This document shows positions 23,440 to 36,636 of a stretch of DNA of 37,344 nucleotides, in pieces. Each line of letters starts with the position of its first letter. The first letter of the stretch is position 1. A program made the translations under genes and the position numbers. The notes beneath the pieces were generated by a model, which made no database searches, was not told the DNA's origin, and saw nothing but the letters and a program-made list of their open reading frames with translations. The DNA comes from a virus. Location of the stretch: positions 1 through 37,344 of IMG/VR virus record IMGVR_UViG_3300018469_000005; one strand, written 5' to 3'.

Positions 23440-23559
23440 TCAGAAGTCTCGATGCTCGGGCGCCCGCGGCCCTAGCGTCCCGATGATCAGGACGATGCCG
23501 CCGAGCGCCAGCACGATGCCGACCGCTACGCCGGTCAGCAGCCAGCCCCACCATTCCAT
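23440..23559 (-). CDS. 39-residue single-pass membrane protein
   Basis: A short gene inside a longer shadow frame. MEWWGWLLTGVAVGIVLALGGIVLIIGTLGPRAPEHRDF is one membrane helix with a short polar tail. GGGGAGGCGGGG precedes the ATG, and the gene fits between its neighbours with a 25-base overlap upstream. Function unknown; a lysis or superinfection role is possible but unproven. Confidence 0.6.
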   Translation of the reverse strand: MEWWGWLLTGVAVGIVLALGGIVLIIGTLGPRAPEHRDF

Positions 23560-23744
23560 CCCCGCCTCCCCTGCAGATACCGGCGCAGCTTCTCGCGCTC
23601 GCCCTCGTCCGTGATCTCGCGCAGCCACGAGCACTGCGCGCAGATATCCTGATCGTTGTCGTACGGCGCGCCGAAGCTGACGACATCCCAGCCGCAGTCG
23701 GCACATTTGAACGCGCGCGAGCCAACGTCGGCGAACGTGGTCAT
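23535..23744 (-). CDS. zinc-ribbon protein (69 aa)
   Basis: TTFADVGSRAFKCADCGWDVVSFGAPYDNDQDICAQCSWLREITDEGEREKLRRYLQGRRGWNGG. A CxxC-x(18)-CxxC ribbon with a following charged helix. The 'F.C..CG.DV...G....ND.DIC..C.WLR.I.D..ER..LR' pattern recurs in phages of Proteobacteria. ATGA overlap upstream. Confidence 0.7.
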   Translation of the reverse strand: MTTFADVGSRAFKCADCGWDVVSFGAPYDNDQDICAQCSWLREITDEGEREKLRRYLQGRRGWNGGAGC

Positions 23745-23956
23745 GACGGTACCTGTCGGACCGCGCCCGGCTGCCGGACTTCGCCGGCATCGCCGAGCAA
23801 CTCGCGGGCGTGCTGATCGAAGTGCCGCTCAAATTCCTTGGCCCGGGCGAAGGTGCTCGGGCTGTAGGGCACGGCCTCGACTTGCGCCCGGCGCATCCGG
23901 ACGGCGAGCGCGACCAGCGCGCGCAGCGCCTCGTAGTCGATCGGCGCGTCAGCCAT
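23741..23956 (-). CDS. small helical protein (71 aa)
   Basis: ADAPIDYEALRALVALAVRMRRAQVEAVPYSPSTFARAKEFERHFDQHARELLGDAGEVRQPGAVRQVPS. Helical and charged; no family recognised. It starts eight bases before the end of the 443-residue gene and overlaps the zinc-ribbon gene as ATGA. Confidence 0.62.
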   Translation of the reverse strand: MADAPIDYEALRALVALAVRMRRAQVEAVPYSPSTFARAKEFERHFDQHARELLGDAGEVRQPGAVRQVPS

Positions 23957-25280
23957 GGCCTTCCTCCGCGCGCAGCCGCCGCTTGTCGGCGAACCGCGTC
24001 CGAAGCAGTCGACCCTTTTCGCCGGTTATCTTGGCGATGCGCTCGGCGTTCTGCTGCTCGAAGTCATCCTGCTCGGCGTCACTCACCGTCTGATCGAGCA
24101 GGTCGTGCAGCGCCTTGATCACGTTATCCTGTCCCATCGTGCCGGGCGGGATCGTCCAGTCACGCTCGCCCCGGCCCGGCTGGTCCGTGGTCTCGTTCAC
24201 TGAACCAGACGGCGGCGGCGTCTCGGGCTCGGCGTGCGGATGGTGCGTCGGCTCGTCGGCCGGCGGATTGGTTGGCGGCGGCGCGCCTCCTCCGTGATCG
24301 GCAGGGGGAGAGGATGCGGCCGCCGCCCCTGCCGCCACGCCGACTCCGTTGGGGGACGGAGTCGGAGGGGACGTGGGTGCGGCAGCAGGTGTCTCGATAT
24401 CGCCGCGGCGCGGCTCGGGCGGCGCCGGCAACGGCCACGTCTCGTCGATCGAGGCGAAGCCGTCTTCGATGTTGTTAAGCTCGCCGTGGATGCCGGCGAT
24501 ATCGGGCGCCAGCCACTCGGCGACGGTACGGCCTTTCACATACTCGACGCGCGGCACGACGCCGACGATGCCGTGCTCGCGGCCTAGATCGTTCAATAGC
24601 TCGACGATGCGCTCGCGCGCCTTGTCGATGTTGCGGCCGATCCGCTCAAGGATCGACTTCTTCGCCGCCTGAAAAGCGCGCTGCGTGAAATCGCCGAGGG
24701 CGGCGTCGATCACGTTACGCTGGCTCTTGGACTGCCCGACGTTGTGCGCGATCTGCTGCCGGCGCTCCTCGTCTTCGCCGCCGAGCGTGGCCGAGCGCGG
24801 GACGATCTGCCCCTTGGTGATCGAGAACCCCGTCTCGAGGTCGCCAAAGCGCGAGTAGCAAATATCGCGCTTGGCATCGAGCCGCATGGTGCGGCTTTCA
24901 ATCGAGCAGTTGCCGTAGAGCCGGCCGATGGCGTTGGTGCATTTGACGCTGGGTCCCTCGATCCAGTCGGTCGTGCCCTTGCGCCGGTTCTTGACGGGAT
25001 AGCGATAGTACCAGCGTTCGCCGGCCATCGCCGCCCACACGTCGATCTTCTGCAGAATCTTGGCGTCGTTGCGTGCGACCTTTACCGGCTGCGCGGTGAT
25101 CAGATCGCCGAACAGACTACGTTCCTGCGTGATCGTCATGTCGCCGTTGACGGCGAGCTCTCCTAGCGAGCGCGCGGCCTCGGCAAACTCGTCGGCGCCG
25201 GGCGGCATGATTTCCGCCGTCGGCCGCGCCCGCTGCTGCTCCTCATGCTGGTCGCGTGGGTCGCCCTGTGGATCGGCCAT
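23949..25280 (-). CDS. large early protein, possible recombination/annealing protein
   Basis: A 443-residue protein with AAGGAGAA before the ATG. Residues about 55-240 form a conserved core (AARNDAKILQKIDVWAAMAGERWYYRYPVKNRR, WIEGPSVKCTNAIGRLYGNCSIESRTM, CYSRFGDLETGFSITK, DEERRQQIAHNVGQSKSQRNVIDAAL, RAFQAAKKSILERIGRNIDKAR). I know this core from phages of Alphaproteobacteria as an uncharacterised protein in early regions. Its size, its basic helices and the 'SK..RNVI..AL' element recall single-strand annealing proteins, but that is only an analogy. Residues 300-370 are a Pro/Ala/Gly linker, and the C-terminal 80 residues are a separate helical unit (VIKALHDLLDQTVSDAEQDDFEQQNAERI). Confidence 0.68.
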   Translation of the reverse strand: MADPQGDPRDQHEEQQRARPTAEIMPPGADEFAEAARSLGELAVNGDMTITQERSLFGDLITAQPVKVARNDAKILQKIDVWAAMAGERWYYRYPVKNRRKGTTDWIEGPSVKCTNAIGRLYGNCSIESRTMRLDAKRDICYSRFGDLETGFSITKGQIVPRSATLGGEDEERRQQIAHNVGQSKSQRNVIDAALGDFTQRAFQAAKKSILERIGRNIDKARERIVELLNDLGREHGIVGVVPRVEYVKGRTVAEWLAPDIAGIHGELNNIEDGFASIDETWPLPAPPEPRRGDIETPAAAPTSPPTPSPNGVGVAAGAAAASSPPADHGGGAPPPTNPPADEPTHHPHAEPETPPPSGSVNETTDQPGRGERDWTIPPGTMGQDNVIKALHDLLDQTVSDAEQDDFEQQNAERIAKITGEKGRLLRTRFADKRRLRAEEGHG

Positions 25281-25437
25281 CGTTCTTCTCCTTGGCTAGT
25301 TGCTGTCGCGCTAGGCGCTCGCGGTATTGCGCCTGATAGCGGCGCATATGGGTGCGCCGGCAATCGTCGCTGCACAGGTTCGTGCTGGCGTGCAACGCGA
25401 CAAATTCCTTTTTGCAGTGGATGCACCGCGCTTTCAT
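25243..25437 (-). CDS. small zinc-finger protein (64 aa)
   Basis: KARCIHCKKEFVALHASTNLCSDDCRRTHMRRYQAQYRERLARQQLAKEKNDGR. A CxxC-x(14)-CxxxC finger of the type that marks small phage DNA-binding or MYM-like proteins, followed by a basic helix. The start at 25437 overlaps the upstream gene; its end overlaps the 443-residue gene by 38 bases. Confidence 0.68.
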   Translation of the reverse strand: MKARCIHCKKEFVALHASTNLCSDDCRRTHMRRYQAQYRERLARQQLAKEKNDGRSTGRPTRPA

Positions 25438-26249
25438 TGGGCCTGCTCCCGCACCTCGAATTCGACACCGGGCGGCGCCTGCGCCTTGTCCTTGAGCCGG
25501 CGGGCGTCGGCGTTGGCGCACATCAGCACGGCGTCACGGAAGGCGTTGATCACGCGCTGCTCGGTCTTGTAGTGCCGGCCGGCCAGCTTCCAGTCGGTGA
25601 TCTTCGCCGACCAGTAGTCGCGTAGGCCGACCGCCTTGGGCGCGAGATCGCCTTTGACGCGGACGCGTTCGGGCTTGCGCTCGGCTTCGGCGCGCAATTC
25701 CTCGGCGGTCTCGACCGCCTGCCGTGCCTCTAGCTCGGCGTCGATGGTGCCCTCGACGCTGGCACGATCCTTCATCGTCTCGGCGGCGCGCGCGGCGTCG
25801 GCGGCGGCGCGCTTCGTCGCCTCGGCTTCGGCTTCCTTGCGCTGCCGCTCGCGCGCCATCCAGTCGGCGAGCAGGCCGGTGACCTTTTTGCTGCCGGCGA
25901 TCCGCTCGATGGCGAGGTCGAGCTTGGGCAGGACGCGGGCCGCCCGGGCGTTGATATTTTCCAGCGCCTGCTCGTGCGGCTCCATCAGATGCGCGACCGT
26001 CGCCCGGATCGCGGCGAGTGCGTCTAGGTGCGGCTGTCGGTCGGCGCCGGCCTTCACCGCCTCGCGCGCCTTGCGGATCTGCACCAGAAATTCGGAGAGC
26101 AGCCGCGCGTCGTCCTCCTTGGTCAGCGGCCCCCGCGTCGTCCAGCCGTCACACGCCGGGATCAACTCCTCGGCGCGCTCGATCGCGGTAGGCTCGGGCG
26201 GCTGGTTATCGCCGATGCCGGGACGGCGCAGGGGATCGTCGTCGGTCAT
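25434..26249 (-). CDS. coiled-coil phage protein (271 aa)
   Basis: The start at 26249 overlaps the upstream stop as ATGA; the frame to 26345 is a shadow. The protein begins TDDDPLRRPGIGDNQPPE, a motif common at the start of phage early proteins. Most of it is helical: ARLLSEFLVQIRKAREAVKAGADRQPHLDALAAIRA, then a long charged coiled coil (RERQRKEAEAEATKRAAADAARAAE ... AVETAEELRAEAERKPERV). The end is a compact domain (VGLRDYWSAKITDWKLAGRHYKTEQRVINAFRDAVLMCANADARRLKDKAQAPPGVEF). This C-terminus is conserved in phages beside recombination proteins; function unknown. Confidence 0.72.
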   Translation of the reverse strand: MTDDDPLRRPGIGDNQPPEPTAIERAEELIPACDGWTTRGPLTKEDDARLLSEFLVQIRKAREAVKAGADRQPHLDALAAIRATVAHLMEPHEQALENINARAARVLPKLDLAIERIAGSKKVTGLLADWMARERQRKEAEAEATKRAAADAARAAETMKDRASVEGTIDAELEARQAVETAEELRAEAERKPERVRVKGDLAPKAVGLRDYWSAKITDWKLAGRHYKTEQRVINAFRDAVLMCANADARRLKDKAQAPPGVEFEVREQAQ

Positions 26250-26776
26250 AGGTGCGTATCCAATAGCTGTCGGAGCGTGGCGATCGGCGCGAGCGCGGCG
26301 AGCGGCACGAAGAAGGCTGGATAGCGCACGCGCGTCTCCCACCATTCCGCGCGCTTGCCATCGCGGCCGAGTATCCAGCCGCGCAGCACGATGGTCGGCG
26401 CGCCGCTCGTGTCGGCGAGCACGTAGGGAAGTTCGTCGCGGTCGTCGGTATGAATGATCAGCCGCCGGTCGGCGTGATCGACCGCGCGGACCTCGACCCG
26501 GCCGCCGACATCGACCGCCTTGTAGTCGCCGACCGCGCCCGACCAGAACAGGTTGAACGCCTTGGCGACCGCGATCTCGCCGCGCACCGCCATCAGGTGC
26601 AGGGCATCGCTATCGCGTCCATTGCTGGCGCCGAAGCGTTGGATTTTGCCGCGCGCGATATTCATGTTGATGCGCTGGCCGGCGATGTGATGCGCCGTCG
26701 ACATTTCCTGCCACGTCAGGGTCACCGTCTCGGCGCCGAGCAGCGGCAGCATTTCGGTCTGGGCGTGATCGCTCAT
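26246..26776 (-). CDS. conserved phage protein, possible PD-(D/E)xK-like fold (176 aa)
   Basis: The start at 26776 overlaps the upstream stop as ATGA. The product has an N-terminal LTWQEMSTAHHIAGQRINMNIARGKIQR, then GEIAVAKAFNLFWSGAVGDYKAVDVGGRVEVRAVDHADRRLIIHTDDRDELPYVLADTSGAPTIVLRGWILGRDGKRAEWW and YPAFFVPLAAL. A helix with 'GE.AVAKA', then 'D.G..VEVR', then a strand with a charged residue, is the layout of restriction-endonuclease-like folds. The usual catalytic lysine of the ExK motif is an arginine here, so activity is uncertain. I know this family only as uncharacterised phage proteins. Confidence 0.65.
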   Translation of the reverse strand: MSDHAQTEMLPLLGAETVTLTWQEMSTAHHIAGQRINMNIARGKIQRFGASNGRDSDALHLMAVRGEIAVAKAFNLFWSGAVGDYKAVDVGGRVEVRAVDHADRRLIIHTDDRDELPYVLADTSGAPTIVLRGWILGRDGKRAEWWETRVRYPAFFVPLAALAPIATLRQLLDTHL

Positions 26777-27090
26777 GGCCGGCTCCGCGGCGGCATCGCG
26801 CCAAGGTCGATCGGCTCGCGCGGCCGGGCCGCCGGATGATGCGGCGCGTGACGGCGCGACCACTCGCGCATGATGGTGAAGAATCGGTAGTCGGCTTCGC
26901 TGCTCGGCCAGCAGATCGGCCACTCCTCGTGCGGGTCGATCGGCGTGCCGTCGGCGCGCTCGGTATAGCCGTCGACTTCGACGCGGATCTCGCCGCCGTC
27001 CTCGAAGAAGCGGACGGCGACCCACGGCCCACCTTTCACCAGCCGGCGTTTGTAGTAGCCGGGCATCGGCGTCCCCATCAGCCGCGTCAT
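26773..27090 (-). CDS. hypothetical phage protein (105 aa)
   Basis: The start at 27090 overlaps the upstream TGA. TRLMGTPMPGYYKRRLVKGGPWVAVRFFEDGGEIRVEVDGYTERADGTPIDPHEEWPICWPSSEADYRFFTIMREWSRRHAPHHPAARPREPIDL. The 'PG.Y..RLVKGGPWV.VR......DG..IDP...W..C.PI.EAEY.F......WA..H.P..P.A.PR..IDL' pattern is a familiar phage family of unknown function, aromatic and strand-rich. Confidence 0.7.
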   Translation of the reverse strand: MTRLMGTPMPGYYKRRLVKGGPWVAVRFFEDGGEIRVEVDGYTERADGTPIDPHEEWPICWPSSEADYRFFTIMREWSRRHAPHHPAARPREPIDLGAMPPRSRP

Positions 27091-27305
27091 CGGTCGGCCG
27101 ACAGGGTGTCTATCTTGATCTTGTTCTTGCGCAGGAGTGCTACCGCCGACTTGTAGTCGGCGATATCCATGACGATCAGCGGCGCGGCGCCGTGATGCAC
27201 GTCCATGCAATGTTTGAGCAGCGAGGCGCCCTGCCGGTAAGCGCGGCACATGGGGCAGTATAGAATCCCGGTCGTCGCGGCTGGCGAGTTGGCTGCGCGC
27301 GCCAT
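27087..27305 (-). CDS. first gene of the early minus operon, C2H2-like (72 aa)
   Basis: ARAANSPAATTGILYCPMCRAYRQGASLLKHCMDVHHGAAPLIVMDIADYKSAVALLRKNKIKIDTLSADR. The C..C-x(12)-H-x(4)-H segment looks like a zinc finger. GGGAGGAG provides a good ribosome binding site. As the first gene after the control region it is expected to be expressed early. Function unknown. Confidence 0.66.
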   Translation of the reverse strand: MARAANSPAATTGILYCPMCRAYRQGASLLKHCMDVHHGAAPLIVMDIADYKSAVALLRKNKIKIDTLSADR

Positions 27306-27823
27306 CGTGGTCTCCTCCCATCTTCAATAGGACGAGCTACGGCGTGCGCACCGACCCTACTCCCACCGCGACTTAGCGATGGTCCTACGCGAAGGCGAGA
27401 CGCGATAGCCTATCCTTGTCGTTCCGAGGGGAGGTTCATTCGAGGGGCTCCGCTCGATAGCCTGTGCGGCCCGGTGGCGGGGAGCCTCGTATGAAAACCT
27501 CGGGCGATGGTCTCGCCTTTTGTTGTAGAGTCGCCGAGGGGTCGGGCCGAAGGCTACGCGCGCGCGCGACGCGGCGTCAACCTTTCACAGTGACAGCAGG
27601 AAAATTTTTTTGTGGCCTTGACACATCGCTATGCGACGCCGGCTGTCAGCGTGAATTGCCGGCCTTTCACCGCACGGTTGCATACCGTTCCCTATCGCAG
27701 CCTACCCCTAACCTACCCGTAACCTATCCAACCGCGCGTACGTCATCGACTCGGCTGCCGTCTCGCTTCCTCGCGCCAAACGCGTTTAGACAACCTCGGC
27801 TTGCCGCGCCTAGCCTAGCGCCC
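27306..27823. promoter_or_regulatory. divergent control region between early operons
   Basis: A 518-base stretch without a gene; the open frame starting at 27464 is only an upstream continuation of the helix-turn-helix gene. It holds CGATAGCCT twice (27403-27411, 27455-27463), CGAGGGG three times (27425-27431, 27441-27447, and about 27534-27540), an inverted repeat CGAG/CTCG (27441-27456), a TTGACA at 27618-27623 without a good -10, an AT patch at about 27600-27611, and tandem repeats at 27691-27733. It must contain the promoters for both divergent operons, but I cannot place them with confidence. Confidence 0.6.
27691..27733 (+). repeat. 11-bp tandem repeats, operator- or iteron-like
   Basis: CCTACCCCTAA (27701-27711), CCTACCCGTAA (27712-27722), CCTATCCAACC (27723-27733), preceded by CCTATCGCAG (27691-27700). 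The period of 11 bases is one helical turn, so a protein could bind all units on one face of the DNA. The array lies about 90 bases before the helix-turn-helix gene at 27824, which may encode its ligand. Confidence 0.6.
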
Positions 27824-28231
27824 ATGCGTATCACTGACCGCGAAGTGCTCGACAGGTTGGTCCGCCGCTACAAGACGCCGGCCGCCGTGATGGACGCACT
27901 CGGCCTCGACCTCACCGATTACTACAATTGGTGCCGGCGCGGCATCCCGCGCGGCTGGCGCCGCACCATCTGGATGATCTGCCGCGAGCGCGACATTCGA
28001 TTTAGCGGCAACTTCCGGCTGACCGAGGCGTGGTGCGATCACGACAAGCTGCCGTCCGAACGGGCCGCCATTGAGCGGGCGTTGCGATCAGTGCGCCCCA
28101 ACAACAACGGAGTGTCCCATGGCGAAGCGGGGAAAGCGGAAGCCAAAAGCAAACGGGCAAGAGCAACCGGCCAACGGCCACCTCCCCGACGGGCTGCCGC
28201 CGGACGAAGTGTTCCAGCGCCACCTCGATAA
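27824..28231 (+). CDS. Cro/CI-type helix-turn-helix protein
   Basis: The start at 27824 is the first ATG after the control region. Residues 1-60 (RITDREVLDRLVRRYKTPAAVMDALGLDLTDYYNWCRRGIPRGWRRTIWMICRERDIRFS) form a helix-turn-helix of the Cro/YdaS type: 'V..L......AV...LG......Y.W...GIP..WR..I'. Its first 95 residues look genuine; the last 40 are arginine/proline/alanine-rich and overlap the next gene by 113 bases, so this tail may carry little structure. It is the only clear phage-repressor-like candidate in the window and is divergent to the early minus operon. Confidence 0.7.
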   Translation: MRITDREVLDRLVRRYKTPAAVMDALGLDLTDYYNWCRRGIPRGWRRTIWMICRERDIRFSGNFRLTEAWCDHDKLPSERAAIERALRSVRPNNNGVSHGEAGKAEAKSKRARATGQRPPPRRAAAGRSVPAPPR

Positions 28232-28667
28232 GATCAGGCCGGCGGTCGCCAAGCTCAAGAAGATGGTCGAGGCTGCGCGCCGACAGCGCGGTACGCTCGG
28301 CAATCTCTACGATCTCGCCGACAAGGACGGCTGCAATCGCAAGGGGTTCAAGAGCGCCATCGCGCTGCTCGACAAGGCGACCGACGAGGTTGCCGTCGAG
28401 ACGCGGACGGTCGGCCGCATCCTGCGCCTGATCGAGCACCCGCTGGTCCTCGATCACGGCCTGTTCCCCGACCTGCCGTTCGCGCCCAAGCCGCCGACGC
28501 CCTATCAGGCCGGCGTCGTGGTCGGCCGGGCCGGCGGCTCGCTAGACGAGTGCCCGCATAATCCGGGCTCGGAAGACTTCATCGAATGGCGCGATGGTCA
28601 CGAGGCCGGCCAGCGCACCAATCGCGACAGCCTGCGCACCGCGAGTGCCGATGCGCCTGCGTCCTGA
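28119..28667 (+). CDS. GapR-like/Rmf-like phage protein
   Basis: The start at 28119 (MAKRGKRKPKANGQEQ) gives 182 residues; the earlier ATG at 28071 lies inside the helix-turn-helix gene. The N-terminus is basic. The middle (IRPAVAKLKKMVEAARRQRGTLGNLYDLADKDGCNRKGFKSAIALLDKATDEVAVETRTVGRILRLI) is a helical pair of the GapR/DUF2312-type found in phages. The end (PYQAGVVVGRAGGSLDECPHNPGSEDFIEWRDGHEAGQ) resembles ribosome-modulation-factor proteins. The fusion of these two parts is common in alphaproteobacterial phages; a DNA- or RNA-binding role early in infection is likely. Confidence 0.68.
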   Translation: MAKRGKRKPKANGQEQPANGHLPDGLPPDEVFQRHLDKIRPAVAKLKKMVEAARRQRGTLGNLYDLADKDGCNRKGFKSAIALLDKATDEVAVETRTVGRILRLIEHPLVLDHGLFPDLPFAPKPPTPYQAGVVVGRAGGSLDECPHNPGSEDFIEWRDGHEAGQRTNRDSLRTASADAPAS

Positions 28668-28679
28668 CCGGCGGACCCC

Positions 28680-29204
28680 ATGCCGCCGGTCGATCTCCAC
28701 GCCGAGTTTTGGCGCGCCATTCGATTCGCGAAGGCGCTGCCGCCGCCCGTCGTCCTAGGCCTTACCGAGCAGGGATTTACCCGGCGCGTCCAATGGGGCC
28801 TCGCCCGCGTCAGCTTCTACGGTGAGCACGGCCGGCAGTACGAGCCGGCGCCGGACGGCCGGGCGATGGCGTTCATCGTCCCGGTCGTCGAGGGCGGCGA
28901 TACCGTGGATCTGTGCGCCATCGACATGATCACCCAGCACGTCGGCACGCGGCTCGGTCTCGGCCGCGCGCTCGGCCAGCCGGCGGTCGACGAGGCGCGC
29001 TTCGGTTCTCCGCTGAAACTGATGGCGCGGCCGCTCGACTGGCTGCGTGATCCAATCGGCTCCGTCTACCTGTTCAATTTTGCAACATTGCCGATCGCCC
29101 TCGACGGTGTAAGCGAGATCGTCTGCGCCAGCATAGAATTGGCCGAGCGGGCGCAGGCACTACTCCCGCCGTCCGAGAGCGATCGCGTCGTGGTGACTGA
29201 ATGA
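28680..29204 (+). CDS. conserved phage protein before the helicase (174 aa)
   Basis: The protein reads PPVDLHAEFWRAIRFAKALPPPVVLGLTEQGFTRRVQWGLARVSFYGEHGRQYEPAPDGRAMAFIVPVVEGGDTVDLCAIDMITQHVGTRLGLGRALGQPAVDEARFGSPLKLMARPLDWLRDPIGSVYLFNFATL. The 'DL.AI......TRLG.G..LG......A.....L.....PL.WLR.P..GV.L' arrangement is shared by phage proteins beside RepA-like ATPases and primases. Its role is unknown but probably in replication. It overlaps the ATPase gene as ATGA. Confidence 0.72.
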   Translation: MPPVDLHAEFWRAIRFAKALPPPVVLGLTEQGFTRRVQWGLARVSFYGEHGRQYEPAPDGRAMAFIVPVVEGGDTVDLCAIDMITQHVGTRLGLGRALGQPAVDEARFGSPLKLMARPLDWLRDPIGSVYLFNFATLPIALDGVSEIVCASIELAERAQALLPPSESDRVVVTE

Positions 29205-30409
29205 CCAAGCCGACGATCTCCGTCGAGGAAGCCAAACGGCGCCGCCGTGAGCGCGAGGGCAAGCAACGGCCGGCGCCGGTCGCCGCGGCCAAGTCCAACG
29301 GTAACGGGACGGTGCGCCATTTGAAGCGTACCGGCTGGCACGAGCTAGGCGATGTCGAGGCGCAGACCCAACTGATCCACGGCCTGCTCGGCGGCAATCA
29401 GCTAGCCGTGCTCTACGGCGAGAGCGGCAGCGGCAAGTCGTTCCTCGCCTTCGACTTCGGCGCGCACTTCGCTCTTAGCCGCGAATGGCTCGGGCACGCC
29501 GTTGCCGAGGGCGGCGTGCTCTACATCGCCGCCGAGGGACGCGGTGGCTGGTCCAATCGCGTCGCCGCCTTCTGCCAGCATCATGACCTCGACGATGAAG
29601 CGCGGGCGATGATCCCGTTCCAGTTCGTTTTGGAGAGCGTCAACCTCGGTCGCAATGGCGGGCTCGATGCTGCCGCCGTGATCGAGGCGGCGAAGCTGGC
29701 GAGCGAGGAGTTCGGCCGGCCGGTCCGTCTGATCTTCGTCGACACGATGGCGAGGGCGATGCCGGGCAGTAACGAGAACGATCCGGTCGACATGGGCGCC
29801 TTCGTCGCCAACGCCGATGCGATCCGCGAGGCGACTGGCGCCACCGTGGTGATCGTCCACCACACCGGCAAGAACGCCGCCCTCGGCGCCCGCGGTCACT
29901 CCTCGCTGCGCGCCGCCGTCGATACCGAGCTCGAGGTCGAGCGATCGGACACCATGCGCATGCTGCGCGTGCGCAAGAGCCGTGACGGTAACGACGGTTT
30001 TGAAATGGCCTTCCGGCTCGACGTGATCGAGATCGGCCGCGACGCCGACGAGCAGCCGATCACTAGCTGCATCATCGCGGGCGCCGACGCCGAGGAGCAC
30101 CGCAAGGCCAAGGCGGCGAAGGCCAAGCCGCTGGCGCAATGGCAGCTTGCCGCCGACTATCTCAAGAACACCTTGGTCGACTATCCCGAGACGGTAGCGC
30201 CGAACGGCCGCTTCCCGACCGGCGTCCCGGTCACGACCATTGGCCGTTTCCGCGAGCAGCTTGGCCGGGCCTCGATCATCGACGGCGAGACCGACGCCTC
30301 GAAGCGCCAGCAGTGGAAGCGCATCAAGGACAAGATGCTGGCCAAGGGGCTGATGCGGATCGAGGGCGAATACTGCTGGCGGCCGGACTGGAAATCCGAG
30401 GGTGCGTGA
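29201..30409 (+). CDS. RepA-like AAA ATPase, replicative helicase
   Basis: A 402-residue P-loop protein. Residues 1-40 are basic. The Walker A motif is GESGSGKS (residues 73-80), in the context LYGESGSGKSFLAFDFGAHFAL. The Walker B is RLIFVDTMAR (about 174-183), followed by GATVVIVHHTGKNAALGARGHSSLRAAVDTELEVE, where HHTGK and the SSLRAAVD segment are characteristic of the RepA/AAA_25 family of RecA-fold helicases. The last 100 residues are a helical region with a winged-helix-like part (TTIGRFREQLGRASI). It probably unwinds phage DNA at the origin that lies directly after it. It overlaps the upstream gene as ATGA. Confidence 0.87.
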   Translation: MTKPTISVEEAKRRRREREGKQRPAPVAAAKSNGNGTVRHLKRTGWHELGDVEAQTQLIHGLLGGNQLAVLYGESGSGKSFLAFDFGAHFALSREWLGHAVAEGGVLYIAAEGRGGWSNRVAAFCQHHDLDDEARAMIPFQFVLESVNLGRNGGLDAAAVIEAAKLASEEFGRPVRLIFVDTMARAMPGSNENDPVDMGAFVANADAIREATGATVVIVHHTGKNAALGARGHSSLRAAVDTELEVERSDTMRMLRVRKSRDGNDGFEMAFRLDVIEIGRDADEQPITSCIIAGADAEEHRKAKAAKAKPLAQWQLAADYLKNTLVDYPETVAPNGRFPTGVPVTTIGRFREQLGRASIIDGETDASKRQQWKRIKDKMLAKGLMRIEGEYCWRPDWKSEGA

Positions 30410-30463
30410 CATGGTTTCCGTGACAGGCGTTTCATGTGTCACGCTCGGATGTCACGAAGGGGC

Positions 30464-30472
30464 ATATCCACA
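30464..30472 (+). promoter_or_regulatory. DnaA box-like site ATATCCACA
   Basis: Eight of nine positions match the DnaA box consensus TTATCCACA (only the first base differs). It lies between iterons 4 and 5 of the array, as in many iteron origins where host DnaA and a phage or plasmid initiator act together. Confidence 0.55.
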
Positions 30473-30475
30473 GGC

Positions 30476-30528
30476 GCGTGACTCCGTGACAACACCACCC
30501 CCTACGGGGGTGGTGTCACGAGTCACGC
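30476..30528. repeat. long hairpin built from iterons
   Basis: Arms GCGTGACTC / GAGTCACGC (outer), GTGACA / TGTCAC (middle) and CCACCCCC / GGGGGTGG (inner) form 23 pairs with two small bulges (C and ACA) around a three-base TAC loop at 30503-30505. Four of the nine iterons lie in its arms, so it may be extruded or bound as a palindrome. It could alternatively terminate helicase transcripts, although there is no T-run. Confidence 0.65.
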
Positions 30529-30622
30529 ACTGGGGTGCCCCCGGCCCGTTGGAACAAGACAAGAACTGAGGAAGTGATCGCGTGACAGCCGCCGTCCTAC
30601 AAGGCGGACATGGAGGAAGGCC

Positions 30623-30988
30623 ATGAGAGAATCCATGAAGCGGCATCTGGTGAGCGCCGGCCTTGGCCTCGCGACCGCCGTCCTGCTGGTGCTGATGGTC
30701 GAGGCGGCGTTCGGACAGACGGTGACGTCACCTGTGCCGATCCGGCCGATCGTCCGGCCGGCCTACGTTGAACCGGCGCCCGCGGCCCCACAGGCGCCCG
30801 CTGGGCCCGGTGCCGCGGATTGGCGGCCTACCGTACGCCCCGCGCCGGACCAATCGCTTCTGGGCGGCCCGCCTGCCCGCCTACGCTACGTGCCGCTCCC
30901 CGGTAGCCACGCCTGCTCGCTCGCCCCGGGCGGGCGCGAGGTGTGCGGCGCGGGCGTCTGGATCGTCGACAGGGAGGAGAGCCGATGA
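30623..30988 (+). CDS. secreted proline-rich protein (121 aa)
   Basis: GGAGGAAGG lies three bases before the ATG. A signal peptide is clear: basic start (MRESMKRH), hydrophobic helix (LVSAGLGLATAVLLVLMVEA) and an AFGQ cleavage site about residue 30. The rest is Pro/Ala/Arg-rich (PVPIRPIVRPAYVEPAPAAPQAPAGPGAADWRPTVRPAP) with two cysteines near the end. It has no lipobox. It precedes the M15 peptidase by a four-base overlap, so an envelope role in lysis is possible; a proline-rich periplasmic protein is reminiscent of spanin subunits, but the topology does not fit a classical one. Confidence 0.68.
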   Translation: MRESMKRHLVSAGLGLATAVLLVLMVEAAFGQTVTSPVPIRPIVRPAYVEPAPAAPQAPAGPGAADWRPTVRPAPDQSLLGGPPARLRYVPLPGSHACSLAPGGREVCGAGVWIVDREESR

Positions 30989-31533
30989 CCGAGTATCTTG
31001 CGGACCAGACGTTTCAGCCGGCGCCCGAGGCGCTGTGCATCTGCGGCGCGTCCTACGAGGATCACCGCGCCAGCGATCTCGCCTGCCCGCTGGTCGAGGT
31101 GTTGCCCGAAGGCTACCTCACGCCGAACTTCACGCTCGCCGAAATGATCCACTCCGATACCGCGATCGCGAACGGCATCGACAACACGCCGCCGCCCGAA
31201 GCGATCGACAACCTCACCCGGCTATGCGGCGTGCTCGAAGAAATCCGCGTGATCTGCGGCAGCTATCCGGTGACGGTCAATTCCGGCTACCGCTGCGAGG
31301 CGCTGAACGAAAAGGTCGGCGGCGTCGAGGACAGTGCCCACCGCTACGGGCTGGGCGCCGATATCGTCATCCCCGACTACGGCGACCCGACCGACATCTG
31401 CGTTGCCGTCACGCCGCACCTTGTCGACCTCAGCATAGACCAACTGATCGACGAGACAGACGGCGAGGGCAATCGCTGGGTCCATGTCGGTCTCTGTGAA
31501 GGGGAGCCGCGCAATGAATGCTTCGCCCTCTGA
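30985..31533 (+). CDS. M15-family peptidase, probable endolysin
   Basis: The start at 30985 overlaps the upstream stop as ATGA, with AGGGAGGAG before it. The 182-residue product has the M15_3-type core FTLAEMIHSDTAIANGIDNTPPPEAIDNLTRLCGVLEEIRVICG, then VNSGYRC. The zinc site is SAHRYGLGAD (H119, D126) and WVHVG (H167). This enzyme type cleaves peptidoglycan cross-links or stem peptides. The first 40 residues are an extra segment with cysteines (CICGASYEDHRASDLAC), possibly a small zinc-binding part. There is no signal peptide, so export would require a holin; no holin is encoded beside it. Confidence 0.85.
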   Translation: MTEYLADQTFQPAPEALCICGASYEDHRASDLACPLVEVLPEGYLTPNFTLAEMIHSDTAIANGIDNTPPPEAIDNLTRLCGVLEEIRVICGSYPVTVNSGYRCEALNEKVGGVEDSAHRYGLGADIVIPDYGDPTDICVAVTPHLVDLSIDQLIDETDGEGNRWVHVGLCEGEPRNECFAL

Positions 31534-31723
31534 CGGCGGCCCCGGGCTCAAGGCCTTCCGTATCGAGTTGCTGGCCGGCGATAGCGTGGTCGGCGCCTAC
31601 GTGGTGCACAGCGAGTCGATCCTCGACGCGATCGGCCGCGGCAACCCGCGGATGTTCGACCGGGCGCGCGCCGCGACGGTCGACCAGATCCGCATCACGC
31701 CCCTACCCGCGAGTGATCCATGA
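31514..31723 (+). CDS. small hypothetical protein (69 aa)
   Basis: The start at 31514 has GAAGGGGA nine bases before it; the ATG at 31484 has none. NASPSDGGPGLKAFRIELLAGDSVVGAYVVHSESILDAIGRGNPRMFDRARAATVDQIRITPLPASDP. A strand-helix-strand unit with a 'FRIELL.GD..VGAY..H..S..DA' pattern. It overlaps the peptidase gene by 20 bases and the next by ATGA. Function unknown. Confidence 0.65.
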   Translation: MNASPSDGGPGLKAFRIELLAGDSVVGAYVVHSESILDAIGRGNPRMFDRARAATVDQIRITPLPASDP

Positions 31724-31923
31724 TCGTCAAGGTCCAGCGCAGCATCAGCCCGGCCGGCATGATGCTGGTCTACGGCGAGGACAAGCGCGTGCTCTTTCAC
31801 GGCCCGGTCTCCGAGGAGGTAACGGCGCTGCTCGGCAAGCGGCTGAAAGCCTACGTCCGCGGCCGGCTCGACGGTGACGGCGCCTTCGTCATCGAGCGCG
31901 AGGTCGACGCCCAGCCATGGTGA
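31720..31923 (+). CDS. small hypothetical protein (67 aa)
   Basis: IVKVQRSISPAGMMLVYGEDKRVLFHGPVSEEVTALLGKRLKAYVRGRLDGDGAFVIEREVDAQPW. The pattern 'I.KVQ......G..MLVY.EDR......P.......L.G..KA..RA.L..DG...I...V..Q.W' is common to short phage proteins of unknown function. Confidence 0.68.
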   Translation: MIVKVQRSISPAGMMLVYGEDKRVLFHGPVSEEVTALLGKRLKAYVRGRLDGDGAFVIEREVDAQPW

Positions 31924-32297
31924 CGGCGGCCGAGGGCATGTTAATTTTCGCGCCCTCATTTGTGGAGCTTCGAGGCTCGCCCGTGCACCAGCCGGCGACA
32001 AGTGACGCGCCCCAACCTGTGGCCGACGACAAGCGCCTCGCCGCCCGCCGGCAGAACTGGTCGGCACGCGAATGGCGTACGTCCGAGAACGGTAACGCGT
32101 TCACCAACGTACGCGGCTTCAACATCGTGGTCTTCGGCTCGCGTAAGGGCTGGGGCATCAAGGTCGAGCAGCGGTATGGCGAGCGCCTGCAATTCGGCAA
32201 GCAGCGGTTCGAGACGGCGGCCGAGGCCAAGGCGCGCGCCTTCGATGCGCTGATCTGGGCCGAGCGGGCATGGGGCGGGAACGGGCGATGGCAATAG
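31917..32297 (+). CDS. hypothetical protein (126 aa)
   Basis: The ATG at 31917 overlaps the upstream gene by seven bases. The first 40 residues are variable; the rest (KRLAARRQNWSAREWRTSENGNAFTNVRGFNIVVFGSRKGWGIKVEQRYGERLQFGKQRFETAAEAKARAFDALIWAERAW) is a compact domain: 'W......G....NV.GFN.VV....R.GW...V......RF....Y.T...A..AAFDAL.WA'. This is a familiar small phage domain with no known function; a two-strand wing and helix may bind nucleic acid. Confidence 0.68.
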   Translation: MVTAAEGMLIFAPSFVELRGSPVHQPATSDAPQPVADDKRLAARRQNWSAREWRTSENGNAFTNVRGFNIVVFGSRKGWGIKVEQRYGERLQFGKQRFETAAEAKARAFDALIWAERAWGGNGRWQ

Positions 32298-32644
32298 AGC
32301 CCGGCACCCTGCAGCGCCTGCAGACCGAACTGATGGTGGTCCGCGCCCAGCGCACCGACCTGCAATACAAAATCCGTCAGCGCCAGTTCGTCGAGCGCAC
32401 CAAGCTGAAAGACTCCTCGATCCGCCGGGCGCTCCGGGTGCGCGATCATCTGATCACCGCGCCGGCCCGCCATGCCCCGCTGCTCGCCGCCGAGTACGGC
32501 CTGAAAATGGAGACCGTCCACGCCGCGCTCTCCGACTTCATGGACAAGACCTTGCGGTGGATATCGGCGCGCGAGTACGTTTTGCCCGAGCAGATAGGAG
32601 CCGACCATGAACGCACCACCACAGACGACCATCCCGCTGCCTGA
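32288..32644 (+). CDS. small basic helical protein (118 aa)
   Basis: The start at 32288 (MAIEPG) is favoured over 32270. EPGTLQRLQTELMVVRAQRTDLQYKIRQRQFVERTKLKDSSIRRALRVRDHLITAPARHAPLLAAEYGLKMETVHAALSDFMDKTLRWISAREYVL. A coiled coil followed by a helix-turn-helix-like unit (APLLAAEYGLKMETVHAALSDFM). A nucleic-acid role is possible. Overlaps both neighbours. Confidence 0.62.
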   Translation: MAIEPGTLQRLQTELMVVRAQRTDLQYKIRQRQFVERTKLKDSSIRRALRVRDHLITAPARHAPLLAAEYGLKMETVHAALSDFMDKTLRWISAREYVLPEQIGADHERTTTDDHPAA

Positions 32645-33284
32645 CAGGATGCGCGACCTGCCGCGCGATCACCGCGGCTACATCATCCCGCGCTTCGTCC
32701 ATTGGGAGAACGGCGAGCCCGACTTCCGCATCGTCGACGCAGCGTTCCGTATGCGCTGCGTTACCTACCGGCTGTGCTGGCTGTGCGGGCAGAAGCTCGG
32801 CCGACACCTCGCCTTCGTGATCGGCCCGATGTGCGCGCTGACGCGGACGACCAGCGAGCCGCCGAGCCACCTTGAATGCGCGCGCTATGCCGCGCAGGTC
32901 TGCCCGTTCCTGTCGCGCCCGCGGATGCGGCGCAACGAGAAGGATTGGCCCGAGGACAAGGTGCGCTATATCCCGGGCGATCACCTTGAGCGCAACCCCG
33001 GCGTCTCGGTGATCTGGGTGACGGCCGACTACGGCGCCTTCGCCGTAGCGAACGGCGATCTCTACAAGGTCGGCGATCCGATCTCGATCGAGTGGTGGCG
33101 CGAGGGCCGGCCGGCGGCGCGCGCCGAATGCGCCGAGAGCATCGAGGCCGGGCTGCCGCTGCTGCGCGACATGGCCGACCGGCAGGATGCGACCAACCAG
33201 CTACGGCCGGATGATCCGCGCGGCGCGCGCTACGCGCTAGAACAGACCTACATCACCCGGCTCGATACGCTGCTGCCCGCGTGA
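32607..33284 (+). CDS. cysteine-rich conserved phage protein (225 aa)
   Basis: GATAGGAGCC lies before the ATG. The 225-residue product has RGYIIPRFVHWENGEPDFRIVD, then CWLCGQKLGRHLAFVIGPMCALTRTTSEPPSHLECARYAAQVCPFLSRPRMRRNE. The last block, CWLCG.......VIGPMC..NR...EPPSH..CA..A...CPFL..P...R, is a well-known phage family that binds zinc or iron and has no assigned function. Then comes NPGVSVIWVTADYGAFAVANG, and a helical end. Confidence 0.76.
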   Translation: MNAPPQTTIPLPDRMRDLPRDHRGYIIPRFVHWENGEPDFRIVDAAFRMRCVTYRLCWLCGQKLGRHLAFVIGPMCALTRTTSEPPSHLECARYAAQVCPFLSRPRMRRNEKDWPEDKVRYIPGDHLERNPGVSVIWVTADYGAFAVANGDLYKVGDPISIEWWREGRPAARAECAESIEAGLPLLRDMADRQDATNQLRPDDPRGARYALEQTYITRLDTLLPA

Positions 33285-33571
33285 AGGAGACCATCCACAA
33301 TGTGATCGACCGCCGGCACAGTTGGATCGGCGCGTGGGAGGCTGTGCCCTTCGACATCAATGCGCTGACCGACGCCGACATCGGCCGGACGGCGATCTAT
33401 CTCGACCGCGGCCGGCGGCAACGCTGGGGTTGGGCCGAGGCCGGCACGATCTCGTCATGGCGCCTCGGGCTGGTGTTCGTCCGCTTCTCGAAGGGCGACA
33501 CCGCCGCGGCCTGCGCGCCGCACGATCTGATGCTCGCCTGCCGTCCACTCGACGGCGATCCGCTGCGCTGA
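33281..33571 (+). CDS. hypothetical protein (96 aa, GTG start)
   Basis: The GTG at 33281 overlaps the upstream stop as GTGA. KETIHNVIDRRHSWIGAWEAVPFDINALTDADIGRTAIYLDRGRRQRWGWAEAGTISSWRLGLVFVRFSKGDTAAACAPHDLMLACRPLDGDPLR. A strand-rich fold: 'D.GR...Y....G.....GTISSW....VFVRF..GDTAAAC.P.DL', a pattern I recall from short phage proteins of unknown function. Confidence 0.68.
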   Translation: MKETIHNVIDRRHSWIGAWEAVPFDINALTDADIGRTAIYLDRGRRQRWGWAEAGTISSWRLGLVFVRFSKGDTAAACAPHDLMLACRPLDGDPLR

Positions 33572-33759
33572 GAAAATGACACGGTGTCGCAGATATAACC
33601 TTGATGCTGCGGCACTGACCGCCGCGATTCGCGCGATCGACATCCCGCGCCTTCTACAACAAACGATTTCTTTTCCGTCGATGACGGGCCTTCGTGCCTT
33701 ACGCCATCGCGTCGGCCTCGGGCGAATCGGGCAACACGCCCATTCTGGAAAAGTCGGTT

Positions 33760-33768
33760 TGCTATAAT
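33760..33768 (+). promoter_or_regulatory. extended -10 promoter TGCTATAAT
   Basis: A perfect TATAAT (33763-33768) with the extended -10 TGn. No good -35 is present, which extended -10 promoters do not need. A transcript from about 33775 would lead to the basic protein gene at 33886 with a 110-base leader. It stands in a gene-free stretch (33572-33885). Confidence 0.6.
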
Positions 33769-33774
33769 CGTCCC

Positions 33775-33866
33775 GCACGCGCGATCCGCGTGCCTCGGGC
33801 TCATTCGCCCGCGCGCTCTTTGCATCGTCTATCCATCAACCAAAAGCGGACGGCGCTGTAACGCCG
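33775..33866 (+). promoter_or_regulatory. structured 5' leader, three hairpins
   Basis: Hairpin 1: GCACGCG (33775-33781) / CGCGTGC (33787-33793). Hairpin 2: CGGGC (33796-33800) / GCCCG (33807-33811). Hairpin 3: CGGCG (33851-33855) / CGCCG (33862-33866). They fill the untranslated region between the extended -10 promoter and the ribosome binding site AGGAG (33875-33879). The first could attenuate transcription and the third could limit access to the ribosome binding site. The 33572-33759 part holds nothing else I can name. Confidence 0.45.
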
Positions 33867-33885
33867 CCCGCCATAGGAGCAAGTC

Positions 33886-34284
33886 ATGTCGAAGAAGAAG
33901 CGGCCGAAGGCTACGGCCACACCCCCGGCCCCGCAAGTTGCGGCGGCCCCGGCGCCTAGACGGCGGCGTCGTCGGCGGCGGCGGACCAACCAGCTACTCT
34001 CGCAGCGGCTGGTCACCGAAGTGAACCAGAAGAAGCGGACGTTCCTGCGGGACGTGAGCCAGATGCTCACCGACGCGCTGGGCTTCGAGGTCCGCGTCAC
34101 ACTGGTCCGACCGAAGGTGGATCTGTCGCCGGACCAGCGGCGGGCGGCGCGGATGACCAAGGCGCAGTCCCGCCGGCAGATGGCGGACTCGATGGTCGCG
34201 CCTATCGTCGCCCGGGCGCGGATCCTGCCCGGGACCAAGCGGGCCGGCATCCCCGGGCTCGACGACGGGATCGGCGACCTCTAG
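33886..34284 (+). CDS. very basic small protein with polyarginine tract (132 aa)
   Basis: AGGAG lies six bases before the ATG. The N-terminal 33 residues are unstructured, SKKKRPKATATPPAPQVAAAPAP, then nine arginines. The rest is helical: TNQLLSQRLVTEVNQKKRTFLRDVSQMLTDALGFEVRVTLVRPKVDLSPDQRRAARMTKAQSRRQMADSMVAPIVARARILPG. It looks nucleic-acid binding. It has its own strong promoter and leader, unlike other small genes here. I do not recognise a family. Confidence 0.66.
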   Translation: MSKKKRPKATATPPAPQVAAAPAPRRRRRRRRRTNQLLSQRLVTEVNQKKRTFLRDVSQMLTDALGFEVRVTLVRPKVDLSPDQRRAARMTKAQSRRQMADSMVAPIVARARILPGTKRAGIPGLDDGIGDL

Positions 34285-34365
34285 CGAAAAGCGGCATCGG
34301 CTTAGAGCGCGGCCCCGCATACTGTTGCAACGGTCAACCGCGCGTTACCCGAACCGGGCCGCCTG

Positions 34366-34408
34366 CCCCCACCCTGCCTGACCAAGACGGGGTGGGGGTT
34401 CCGTTTGT
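34366..34408. terminator. bidirectional intrinsic terminator
   Basis: CCCCCACCC (34366-34374) and GGGTGGGGG (34390-34398) form a perfect nine-pair stem with a 15-base loop, followed on the plus strand by TTCCGTTT. It lies between the plus-strand gene ending at 34284 and the minus-strand gene ending at 34417, so it can stop transcripts from both sides. The stretch 34285-34365 shows nothing else except a near-palindrome centred on GTTGCAAC. Confidence 0.7.
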
Positions 34409-34416
34409 CCGGGCGA

Positions 34417-34950
34417 TCAGACGTTCACCAGCGTCGAGGCTTCGCTGTATTTGTGATCGCCCTTCGTCATCATTTCGAGGAATTCGGCGCGCGTGAAGTC
34501 GGATAGACGGAAGACTTCCTCGGGCCGCATGCCGAGTTGCTTGCCGATCTCGGGCACCGTCTTCCCGTTATCCATCAGGCGCTTGACGATCGCCTTCATC
34601 GGCCCGAGTTGGTGGACGCCGCGCGCCCGGTTATGCGTGATCGTGCCGTAGACGTTGGCGTCATCATCGGCGTGCTCGACGACAGCGATCGGCACCATGC
34701 CGCCGAGCCGCGATAGCAACGGCTCGATGCCCGAGACCATCCAGCGGTGATAGCCGTCGATGATCACCATGTCGGGCCGGACCACGATGGGCATGGTCCA
34801 GCCGTTGGTCATGATCGACTGCGTGAGCAGCTTTAGGTTCTCGGGCAGGACGGCGTTCGGGTTGTAGTCATTCGGCCGCAGTTGATCGCGCTGGACCAAA
34901 CGCACGTTCGTCACCGGCCGGAGAAGGTCGATCGACGGACTGCTTGTCAT
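34417..34950 (-). CDS. ParB/Srx-like protein with helix-turn-helix (IbrB-like)
   Basis: The start at 34950 has GGGAG seven bases upstream, better than the ATG at 34980. The 177-residue product has an N-terminal ParB/sulfiredoxin-like domain: LVQRDQLRPNDYNPNAVLPENLKLLTQSIMTNGWTMPIVVRPDMVIIDGYHRWMVS, with GYHRW (66-70) at the position of the nucleotide-binding GERR box. THNRARGVHQLGPM (105-118) matches the following ParB box. Residues 130-150 (KTVPEIGKQLGMRPEEVFRLS) form a helix-turn-helix. E. coli IbrB has the same form and is paired with the PP-loop protein IbrA, as here. The gene overlaps the PP-loop gene by 83 bases. Confidence 0.82.
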   Translation of the reverse strand: MTSSPSIDLLRPVTNVRLVQRDQLRPNDYNPNAVLPENLKLLTQSIMTNGWTMPIVVRPDMVIIDGYHRWMVSGIEPLLSRLGGMVPIAVVEHADDDANVYGTITHNRARGVHQLGPMKAIVKRLMDNGKTVPEIGKQLGMRPEEVFRLSDFTRAEFLEMMTKGDHKYSEASTLVNV

Positions 34951-36049
34951 AGCGGACTCCCATCTTGTTGGAGAGCGCACGGAGCGACCGCTTCTTCGGG
35001 TCGCCGGCGACGAGGATCTGGTACATGTCGCGGTAGTCGACTTCGAGCATCGACGTGCCGGCCTTGATCATTTCCCGCAGGCACTCGCGCGCAAGCTGGC
35101 GCTGCGACTTGTTGGTGAAGTGCGCCGGGATGTCGGCGAACATCGCGTGTACCGCGGCCTTGTAGTTGACCGCCGTCCCGCCCTGCCCTTCGAGGACGCG
35201 CCGCGTCCGGCTACGGCGCCGGAACATTTCGGAGTGGAAGTAGAGCGAGACGAGGTAGGCGTTGGGCTCGCGCTTAAGGATAGCCAGCATCAGCCCGGGA
35301 TAGTACCGCTCGATGTCGGCGAGGTTGCGCGCGGTGTCGATCGAGAAGAACTGCGATATGCGCAACTGCTGCCCGCCGTCGATTGCGTACAGATGGAGAT
35401 AGGCGTCGGGGATCTCGACGGCGTGGTCTCGGAGGTAGAGCCAGACATCGTGGTCGCGCCAGTCATAGATCGGCTGGACGGTGTTGCACTGTTCCAGCTT
35501 GAGGTCGCCCCGGCGGCGCTGCGCGAAGGCTAGCCGGCGCTGCACCGATTCATTGATGCGCACGCCCGTCATGTTGAGCCCGTTGGAGAGCCGCGGCAGG
35601 AAGGCCTGATAGTTGTCCTTGCGCGGCTTGAGCAGCGGGTGGCTGCGGATCGCGAACGGCGGCGGGCGCCGTATCCAAACGTCCTCGCGGGTATGGTCCC
35701 AGCAGAAAAACGACTCGTCGTTCTCCAGCATGTTGAGGCACGAGTAGTGCCGGACCTCTAGGCAGTACCAATCGAATTTGGCGCCGGCCATCAGGAACAT
35801 ATCGCGCCATTGCCGGACGACGCGCTCGACGCACGGGAAGATCGCTTCCTCGTCGATGAAGATGACCGTAAGCTGGTGCAGGTCGATCGCGCCCTGTTGC
35901 CCCAACTCGAGCGTGAGGTGGGCGAGGGTCAGCGAATCCTTACCCCCGGAGAATGACATGTAGACCGGGAGCCCGTTGCCGAAGATCGAGCGGATGCGCA
36001 GGCGCGCCGCGGTGACGACATCCATGCCCAGCTTGCGCTCGACCATCAT
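34868..36049 (-). CDS. PAPS-reductase-like PP-loop ATPase (IbrA-like)
   Basis: The start ATG at 36049 overlaps the ParB-like stop as ATGA; the longer frame to 36079 overlaps that gene further. The 393-residue product has the PP-loop SGGKDS (residues 34-39) in VYMSFSGGKDSLTLAHLTLELG, then LTVIFIDEEAIFPCVERVVRQW, DWYCLEVRHYSCLNMLENDESFFCWDH, and the PAPS-reductase element VQPIYDWRDHDVWLYLRDHAVEIP. It activates substrates as adenylates, by family. The C-terminal 130 residues (IERYYPGLMLAILKREPNAYLVSLYF ...) are specific to the IbrA/phage subgroup. The substrate is unknown; sulphur or nucleotide chemistry is a guess from the fold. Confidence 0.86.
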   Translation of the reverse strand: MMVERKLGMDVVTAARLRIRSIFGNGLPVYMSFSGGKDSLTLAHLTLELGQQGAIDLHQLTVIFIDEEAIFPCVERVVRQWRDMFLMAGAKFDWYCLEVRHYSCLNMLENDESFFCWDHTREDVWIRRPPPFAIRSHPLLKPRKDNYQAFLPRLSNGLNMTGVRINESVQRRLAFAQRRRGDLKLEQCNTVQPIYDWRDHDVWLYLRDHAVEIPDAYLHLYAIDGGQQLRISQFFSIDTARNLADIERYYPGLMLAILKREPNAYLVSLYFHSEMFRRRSRTRRVLEGQGGTAVNYKAAVHAMFADIPAHFTNKSQRQLARECLREMIKAGTSMLEVDYRDMYQILVAGDPKKRSLRALSNKMGVRYDKQSVDRPSPAGDERAFGPARSTAAE

Positions 36050-36633
36050 AGCGTGAACTCCCCGCGGCAGTGCGGGCACGTCACGATCCGCGGCGCCGCC
36101 CCGTTCGCCGCGTGCGCGCCGTTGGTCCCCGCCCCGTTCGGCGCCGGCTGCGTCGAGCCCGCCGGGATCTGCCGGCCCTGCGCCGCGGCGATCTCCTCGG
36201 GCGATAGCCGGCCGTACTCGGTCGTATAGTTCTCGGTCAGTTGATCGACATTGCCGATCAGGCTTTTCAGCAGGCTCTCGTCGAAGCCCGGCACGTCGTA
36301 GTCGCTAAGGCTGCCGAGTACCGACTTGATCGCGTCGTAGTCGTCGACCCCCATCTGAAAAATCTTGTTGTCCGAGAGGATCAGCTTGGACTTGTCGGTC
36401 GGCGACAGGCCGGCCATCCGGATCGCCTGTACCTCCGTCCACTCCAGCTTTGTCGCCGCCTCGACCAGCCCGTTGCCGGCGAGCACCATGCCGTCCTCGT
36501 CGATGACGATGGGACGCGTCTGCCCGAACATCATGAGCGCGCGGCAGAACTCCGTGATCTGTGCCTCGGGGTGACGGCGGGTGTTGCGCGGCGGCGGGCG
36601 CAGGTCGGCGATGGCGACGGGCTCGATCTGCAT
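36046..36633 (-). CDS. ParB-like protein with C-terminal zinc knuckle
   Basis: The 195-residue product starts QIEPVAIADLRPPPRNTRRHPEAQITEFCRALMMFGQTRPIVIDEDGMVLAGNGLVEAATKLEW, a ParB N-terminal domain with the GNGLVEAA box, continued by LSPTDKSKLILSDNKIF. This is the subgroup usually linked to DNA methyltransferases or phage terminase regions, where the 'L.DNK' box follows. The middle is acidic, the linker is Pro/Ala/Gly-rich, and the end has CPHC (186-189), a single zinc knuckle. It lies between cupin and PP-loop genes with four-base overlap downstream. Confidence 0.8.
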   Translation of the reverse strand: MQIEPVAIADLRPPPRNTRRHPEAQITEFCRALMMFGQTRPIVIDEDGMVLAGNGLVEAATKLEWTEVQAIRMAGLSPTDKSKLILSDNKIFQMGVDDYDAIKSVLGSLSDYDVPGFDESLLKSLIGNVDQLTENYTTEYGRLSPEEIAAAQGRQIPAGSTQPAPNGAGTNGAHAANGAAPRIVTCPHCRGEFTL

Positions 36634-36636
36634 GGC

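Follow-up and report, generated by a model that had tools for sequence, protein, structure and literature searches.

A candidate replication origin directly behind a RepA-like phage helicase gene, whose repeats appear to be read by a single helicase residue

The window analysed here, 37,344 bases long, is an entire virus record, which may represent only part of a genome. Its source is a temperate phage that encodes a tail sheath, a baseplate hub, a tape measure and an integrase, and a megablast search of positions 20000-37344 against phages found no close relatives. Central to our analysis is a gene encoding a 402-residue protein (Table 1) which carries AAA_25 as its sole Pfam domain (E 7e-36), matches the RSF1010 RepA profile (E 2e-14) and finds its closest solved structure in RSF1010 RepA itself (1g8y, Foldseek E 4.5e-11); by family, the protein is a replicative helicase. 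Its AF2 model reaches a pLDDT of 90, and the residues K79, D181 and H221 are invariant. Towards the C-terminus we predict a winged helix, composed of helices 313-327, 347-356 and 365-381, a strand at 344-346 and a wing at 386-393, which gives a pLDDT of 87 when modelled by itself. Structural searches with this domain singled out no solved winged-helix family, with a best Foldseek E-value of 0.12 and generic winged-helix matches in VIA-align, the best (Z ~8) falling among ORC, CRP and MCM domains.

Directly after this RepA-like helicase gene, the first-pass annotation had described nine copies of CGTGAC[A/T] in both orientations within 183 bases (30405-30587), a 23-pair hairpin containing four of them, and an array start lying inside the end of the gene. 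All of this is borne out. An exact count gives five copies on the plus strand and four on the minus strand, against a maximum of three per 183 bases in 200 dinucleotide shuffles, and the first copy holds the TGA stop codon of the helicase. Nor is the heptamer evenly spread: CGTGACW occurs 14 times in the whole record (9.49 expected by chance), nine of these copies lie in the array, and the other five are scattered with no enrichment outside it; no other heptamer in the window is as densely clustered as CGTGACA. The hairpin folds at -25.9 kcal/mol (z -7.7), a value equalled by 0 of 200 shuffles, and frames the palindromic core with two direct iterons and two inverted ones. Iterons 2-9 all lie upstream of the next plus-strand gene, which starts at 30623. 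Some 350 bases past the array begins a gene for an M15 peptidase (30943-31533, plus strand), possibly involved in lysis.

Table 1. Positions of the helicase gene and of the features of the repeat array in the window.
Feature	Position	Strand	Basis or remark
Replicative helicase, RepA-like (AAA_25, RecA-fold), with a predicted winged helix at the C-terminus	29201-30409	+	proposed self-loading initiator
Coding region of the predicted winged helix (residues 313-393), which we propose binds the iterons	30137-30379	+	model secondary structure
Codon of Q370, recognition-helix residue X covarying with the iteron dinucleotide	30308-30310	+	locus comparison
Iteron 1, CGTGACA	30405-30411	+	spans helicase TGA stop (30407-30409)
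Iteron 2, CGTGACA	30419-30425	+	exact match
Iteron 3, CGTGACA	30437-30443	-	exact match
Iteron 4, CGTGACA	30450-30456	-	exact match
DnaA-box-like ATATCCACA	30464-30472	+	one mismatch to TTATCCACA; unsupported as functional
Hairpin, 23 pairs; core palindrome 30492-30516, centre CCCCCTACGGGGG	30476-30528		folding
Iteron 5, CGTGACT	30477-30483	+	left hairpin arm
Iteron 6, CGTGACA	30485-30491	+	left hairpin arm
Iteron 7, CGTGACA	30514-30520	-	right hairpin arm
Iteron 8, CGTGACT	30521-30527	-	right hairpin arm
Iteron 9, CGTGACA	30581-30587	+	exact match

Does such an array also stand behind related helicase genes? Loci were picked by helicase similarity and not by the presence of arrays. In named plasmids and phages, ten distant homologues (~27-38% identity) are each followed by a short-repeat array, built on the words GTGACA, GGGACA, GGACA, GGAACA, GCAACA or GCGGAA, and most have a palindrome centred on CCCTATAGGG or similar. 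All ten beat 100 shuffles, a test from which eight loci were omitted as duplicates or fragments, although L023 did so barely and failed against 40 fresh shuffles. For the wider survey we scored the commonest 6-mer on both strands, from 30 bases before the stop codon to 420 after it, against dinucleotide shuffles. Loci sharing both the protein end and the downstream bases were collapsed as identical, and those with too little downstream sequence were excluded. In the first round, 292 loci reduced to 232 distinct ones, 227 of them with enough sequence, and an array was detected downstream in 157; control positions scored 3-5% (11/207 upstream, 6/226 inside the gene, 7/200 at +800 to +1250). The full set of 475 loci (349 distinct, 341 testable) yielded 213 downstream arrays, 150/224 among the earlier loci and 63/117 among the newer. 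In 128 of the 341 the test detects no array, and some subgroups are wholly without one, such as the L005-L011 group and, within the new loci, an SNPRSVYKQ/NPKTSYKQ group.

The arrangement of these 213 arrays is as consistent as their words are varied. Their start falls 0-30 bases after the stop codon in 136 cases, earlier in 37 and later in 40, and an iteron overlaps the stop codon itself in 11, including the window, a Pseudorhodobacter plasmid and phage 16-3. A CC..TA..GG centre is present in 115 (21.3 in shuffles), and 103 of these centres are flanked within 30 bases by words of opposite orientation; centres drawn at random from these arrays average 59. The arrays use 94 different 6-mer words. 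REP elements also combine short repeats with a hairpin, and the window array resembles them superficially; however, shuffles never exceeded three copies, and a mobile repeat would not be expected to keep a fixed position behind a single gene family while its word takes 94 forms, so that chance clustering or a REP- or MITE-type element with no role in replication is hardly credible. A comparison with related phages, which the first-pass annotation had proposed, comes down on the same side as its heptamer count: the nearest relatives found, at 55% identity (L060; also L299 and L300), keep both the GTGACA repeats and the hairpin. In one clade of small contigs, copies sit at fixed positions (7, 16, 26, 36, 61, 70, 91 and 100 in L087, L094 and L096), with CGTGAC, CGTAAC, CGTCAC, CGTTAC or CGGGAC as the word of a given member of the clade; the copies change together.

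What, then, might the word follow? In this same clade, the proteins differ at one position in the third helix of the winged helix, which we call X and which is Q370 in the window; the pairings of residue and word are Q/CGTGAC, M/CGTAAC, T/CGTCAC, V/CGTTAC and K/CGGGAC. The residue rule was written down before further loci were fetched. The motif class comprises 227 loci, of which 117 received a dinucleotide call and 110, having none, were left out of the code tables. Across the 117 called loci pooled, K or R goes with GG in 67/71, Q with TG in 12/13 and D or N with CG in 5/5, with mixed dinucleotides for A, S, T, M and V. In the 36 called new loci, K predicted GG in 17/20, R predicted GG in 5/5 and Q predicted TG in 3/3 (Fisher p of 1e-5 with K/R and of 1e-4 with Q, uncorrected for relatedness). 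Thirty of the 36 share less than 70% domain identity with any earlier locus, and there the rule held in 19/21 (K/R to GG) and 1/1 (Q to TG). The new-locus test was not blind to the caller: the first dinucleotide caller could not separate GTGAC from GTCAC and gave zero TG calls, and it was revised once, after both the training and the new tables had been seen. Applied to the new loci, the unrevised caller had paired K with GG in 17/19 and R with GG in 4/4. A further rule, T to TC, was rejected (0/3 in the new loci), and M and V yield no consistent single-residue reading.

Considering how closely related many such loci may be, the association was also examined at the level of clusters and of a tree. 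With one representative for each of 52 clusters at 50% identity, column X carried, of all C-terminal columns, the highest mutual information with the dinucleotide in 30/30 resamplings (z 10.4, next column 3.9); K went with GG in 19/22 clusters, R with GG in 5/6, and Q with TG in just 7/11, because the DTR[KR]Q subfamily pairs Q with GCAAC-type words. This subfamily (L077, L088-L093, L099, L102 and L104, with GTTGCA/GCAACA arrays) has a recognition helix that is built differently, and the residue rule does not apply to it. On a tree of 126 loci built from the ATPase part alone, without the C-terminal domain, X changed 49 times and the dinucleotide 43 times. Independent pairs on this tree were concordant for K/R and GG in 12.4 of 16 (0.0 discordant; p ~0.0005, or 0.002 for K alone) and for Q and TG in 8.5 of 10 (0.0 discordant; p ~0.008), and over 104 columns the next best after X reached p 0.07. 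In a pairwise test of 5-mer word changes, X came joint second (p 0.0087) behind column X+7 (p 0.0027), a test we set aside because it counted the reverse complements GTGAC and GTCAC as one word. Taken together, these comparisons suggest that the array word is rewritten in step with one helicase residue that appears to read it.

We read the 183-base array as the replication origin of the phage, recognised through the winged helix by the helicase encoded just upstream, and give this reading a probability of roughly 0.78. A conserved position behind distant homologues, a word that tracks the recognition helix, and plasmids in which no other known initiator is found make an origin beside the helicase, as the first-pass annotation had proposed, what appears to be the best-supported reading. 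The plasmids are two circular ones, Methylobacterium sp. FF17 pD and M. currus unnamed4, which carry both the helicase gene and the array. Annotated genes plus open frames of at least 100 codons in the gaps gave 52 and 64 proteins, respectively, and among the best 25 of 27 and the best 25 of 29 Pfam families there was no replication initiator beyond AAA_25; its partner in both is a Toprim_3/DUF7146 match, with the Toprim gene directly upstream of the helicase gene. The array is real and probably a functional origin, ordinary for one phage, yet a member of a large family.

Some observations speak against an origin: an AT-rich element is missing, DnaA boxes are not enriched, and skew agrees in just one of four plasmids. 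The step from array to origin is for this reason an inference, if the most economical one. In the window array, A+T stays at or below 0.45 over any 40 bases. The strict DnaA box consensus is TTWTNCACA; the DnaA-box-like site of the first-pass annotation is indeed present in the window, but as an element of the system it is unsupported, since strict boxes number 7 in the 213 family arrays and 7.1 in their shuffles. The GC skew calculation suggested at the same time lends no clear support: the cumulative minimum of the window lies near 33-34 kb and not at 30.4 kb, and of four circular plasmids it is Caenibius p1 alone that has its minimum near the array.

How might such an origin work? The C-terminal winged helix would bind the CGTGACA iterons, with Q370 in the recognition helix reading their TG step, and this binding would nucleate the RecA-fold helicase on its own origin. 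Two helicase assemblies might meet, the strands might open, or a primase might start at the central palindrome, where the inverted iterons are paired. Our analysis establishes the array, its position, the shared layout, the predicted winged helix and the covariation of residue and base; that the protein physically binds there, loads as a helicase, opens the strands and starts replication is what we infer.

Perhaps the helicase binds the array for regulation instead: acting as a roadblock or an attenuator, the site would end the replication operon or control downstream genes, with the true origin elsewhere. The array does sit between the helicase gene and the genes that follow, its hairpin is strong, and covariation of the helicase domain speaks for a binding partner and not for initiation as such. 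Against this, TTTT follows strong stems in only 4/134 cases, so the hairpin is not an intrinsic terminator, a candidate we rejected; outside the array the heptamer shows no enrichment, with five scattered copies, and there is therefore no second cluster at an early promoter; and the two plasmids have no other known initiator. We regard regulation without an origin as unlikely. Packaging (cos/pac) or partition (a centromere) would fit with the terminase genes that come next in pMRAD08 and Caenibius p1, and with the ParB-like protein encoded at 36046-36633 in the window. However, the array word follows the recognition helix of the helicase itself, and the array of phage 16-3 lies ~56 kb into a linear record that is 60 kb long, away from its end, which leaves a packaging or partition site very improbable.

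The origin reading joins features familiar from elsewhere. P4 alpha unites a Toprim primase, a helicase and a C-terminal iteron-binding winged helix in one protein, and in geminiviruses the iteron sequence covaries with the specificity determinants of Rep; the covariation is alike, and the protein, a rolling-circle Rep of plant viruses, is unrelated. Compared with a classical Rep_3-type origin, the phage locus has no Rep_3 initiator by Pfam, in the window helicase or the two plasmids, and neither the AT-rich element nor the DnaA boxes of that type were found, with A+T and box counts at the levels given above. The overall kind is already known from SaPI Rep, pRN1 and PLE. What sets the phage family apart is its RecA-fold motor of RepA type, a proposed iteron reader fused to that motor, inverted iteron pairs around a palindrome, and a residue-to-base relation that can be read across many clades.

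In the SaPI Rep helicases, the C-terminal domain acts on iterons directly downstream of rep, for which self-loading has been proposed, and SCCmec Cch2 likewise acts on AAGTG repeats, the Cch and Cch2 families being of the DUF927 and Primase_Cterm/D5 types (PMC7581432). The phage locus shares the short iterons directly downstream of a helicase gene, with an origin role that is our reading here; where SaPI Rep and Cch2 have a C-terminal domain that recognises the iterons, it offers a predicted winged helix and strong covariation. Unlike DUF927 or Primase_Cterm/D5, its motor is a RecA-fold RepA-like ATPase (AAA_25), and its iterons, again unlike theirs, point both ways about a conserved palindrome, and their word is highly variable. 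The helicase would thus work like a SaPI-type replicon without being a member, because the motor differs. ORF904 of pRN1 has a C-terminal winged helix and a required stem-loop or origin downstream of its gene, combined with an AEP primase and an SF3 helicase and, as the paper says, no iterons; its authors suggest that the scheme also occurs in phages (PMC4234260). The phage locus shares the downstream stem-loop and, by prediction, the winged helix, but has iterons as well as the hairpin, and a RepA-type motor with no AEP primase or SF3 helicase in its 402 residues. With RSF1010 it has in common the RecA-fold helicase core (RepA) and an iteron origin; there the iterons are read by a separate RepC (PMC4234260), whereas here the proposed iteron reader is fused to the motor. 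In PLE, the DNA-binding domain of RepA covaries with the origin from element to element, as in the phage family, and cognate pairs have been shown experimentally, although PLE RepA is a RepA_N initiator with ~30-bp iterons and two replicon types (PMC8263062). An AAA_25/RepA-like phage helicase features in PMC8965321, the accessible portion of which names no downstream iterons, and that of PMC4538821 does not mention iterons. In the open-access literature (subscription papers were not covered), we found no description of such an origin class.

On balance, and somewhat more for than against, we posit that RepA-like helicases to which a winged helix is fused make up a large class of self-loading initiators, as yet undescribed, that spans phages, satellites and plasmids. 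Their origins would sit immediately downstream of the gene, and a code in the recognition helix that rests largely on one residue (GG read by K/R, TG by Q, CG by D/N) would let replicons switch origin specificity by rewriting all their iterons in concert. The recognition code of a large helicase family appears to be readable from sequence. Origins could be predicted by sequence alone for many uncharacterised phages, satellites and plasmids, and the near-identical winged helices with differing words offer a natural series in which the specificity of initiator and origin changes while replication persists. The system also suggests a RepA-type motor acting as its own initiator, which would make a separate origin-binding protein and loader unnecessary.

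One such prediction concerns a known temperate phage, 16-3 (L019, DQ500118), where fifteen CGTGAC copies and a hairpin stand behind p101 (locus 4042-4410). We predict this array to be its origin; a literature search found no paper. Other observations lie to the side of the origin reading. In the window, a gene for a PAPS-reductase-like protein overlaps that for the ParB-like nuclease (34868-36633, minus strand), and the phage-like plasmid of M. currus (L486) encodes DarT and macro-domain proteins, a DarTG-like toxin-antitoxin pair, at 24769-26482 (minus strand). Finally, L075, L076, L087, L094, L100, L152 and others carry a GGTCCCAATGCCCC-like motif ~100-150 bases after the helicase stop, just past the array; these carriers form one clade of small contigs, mostly 7-14 kb, and are possibly a family of phage satellites.
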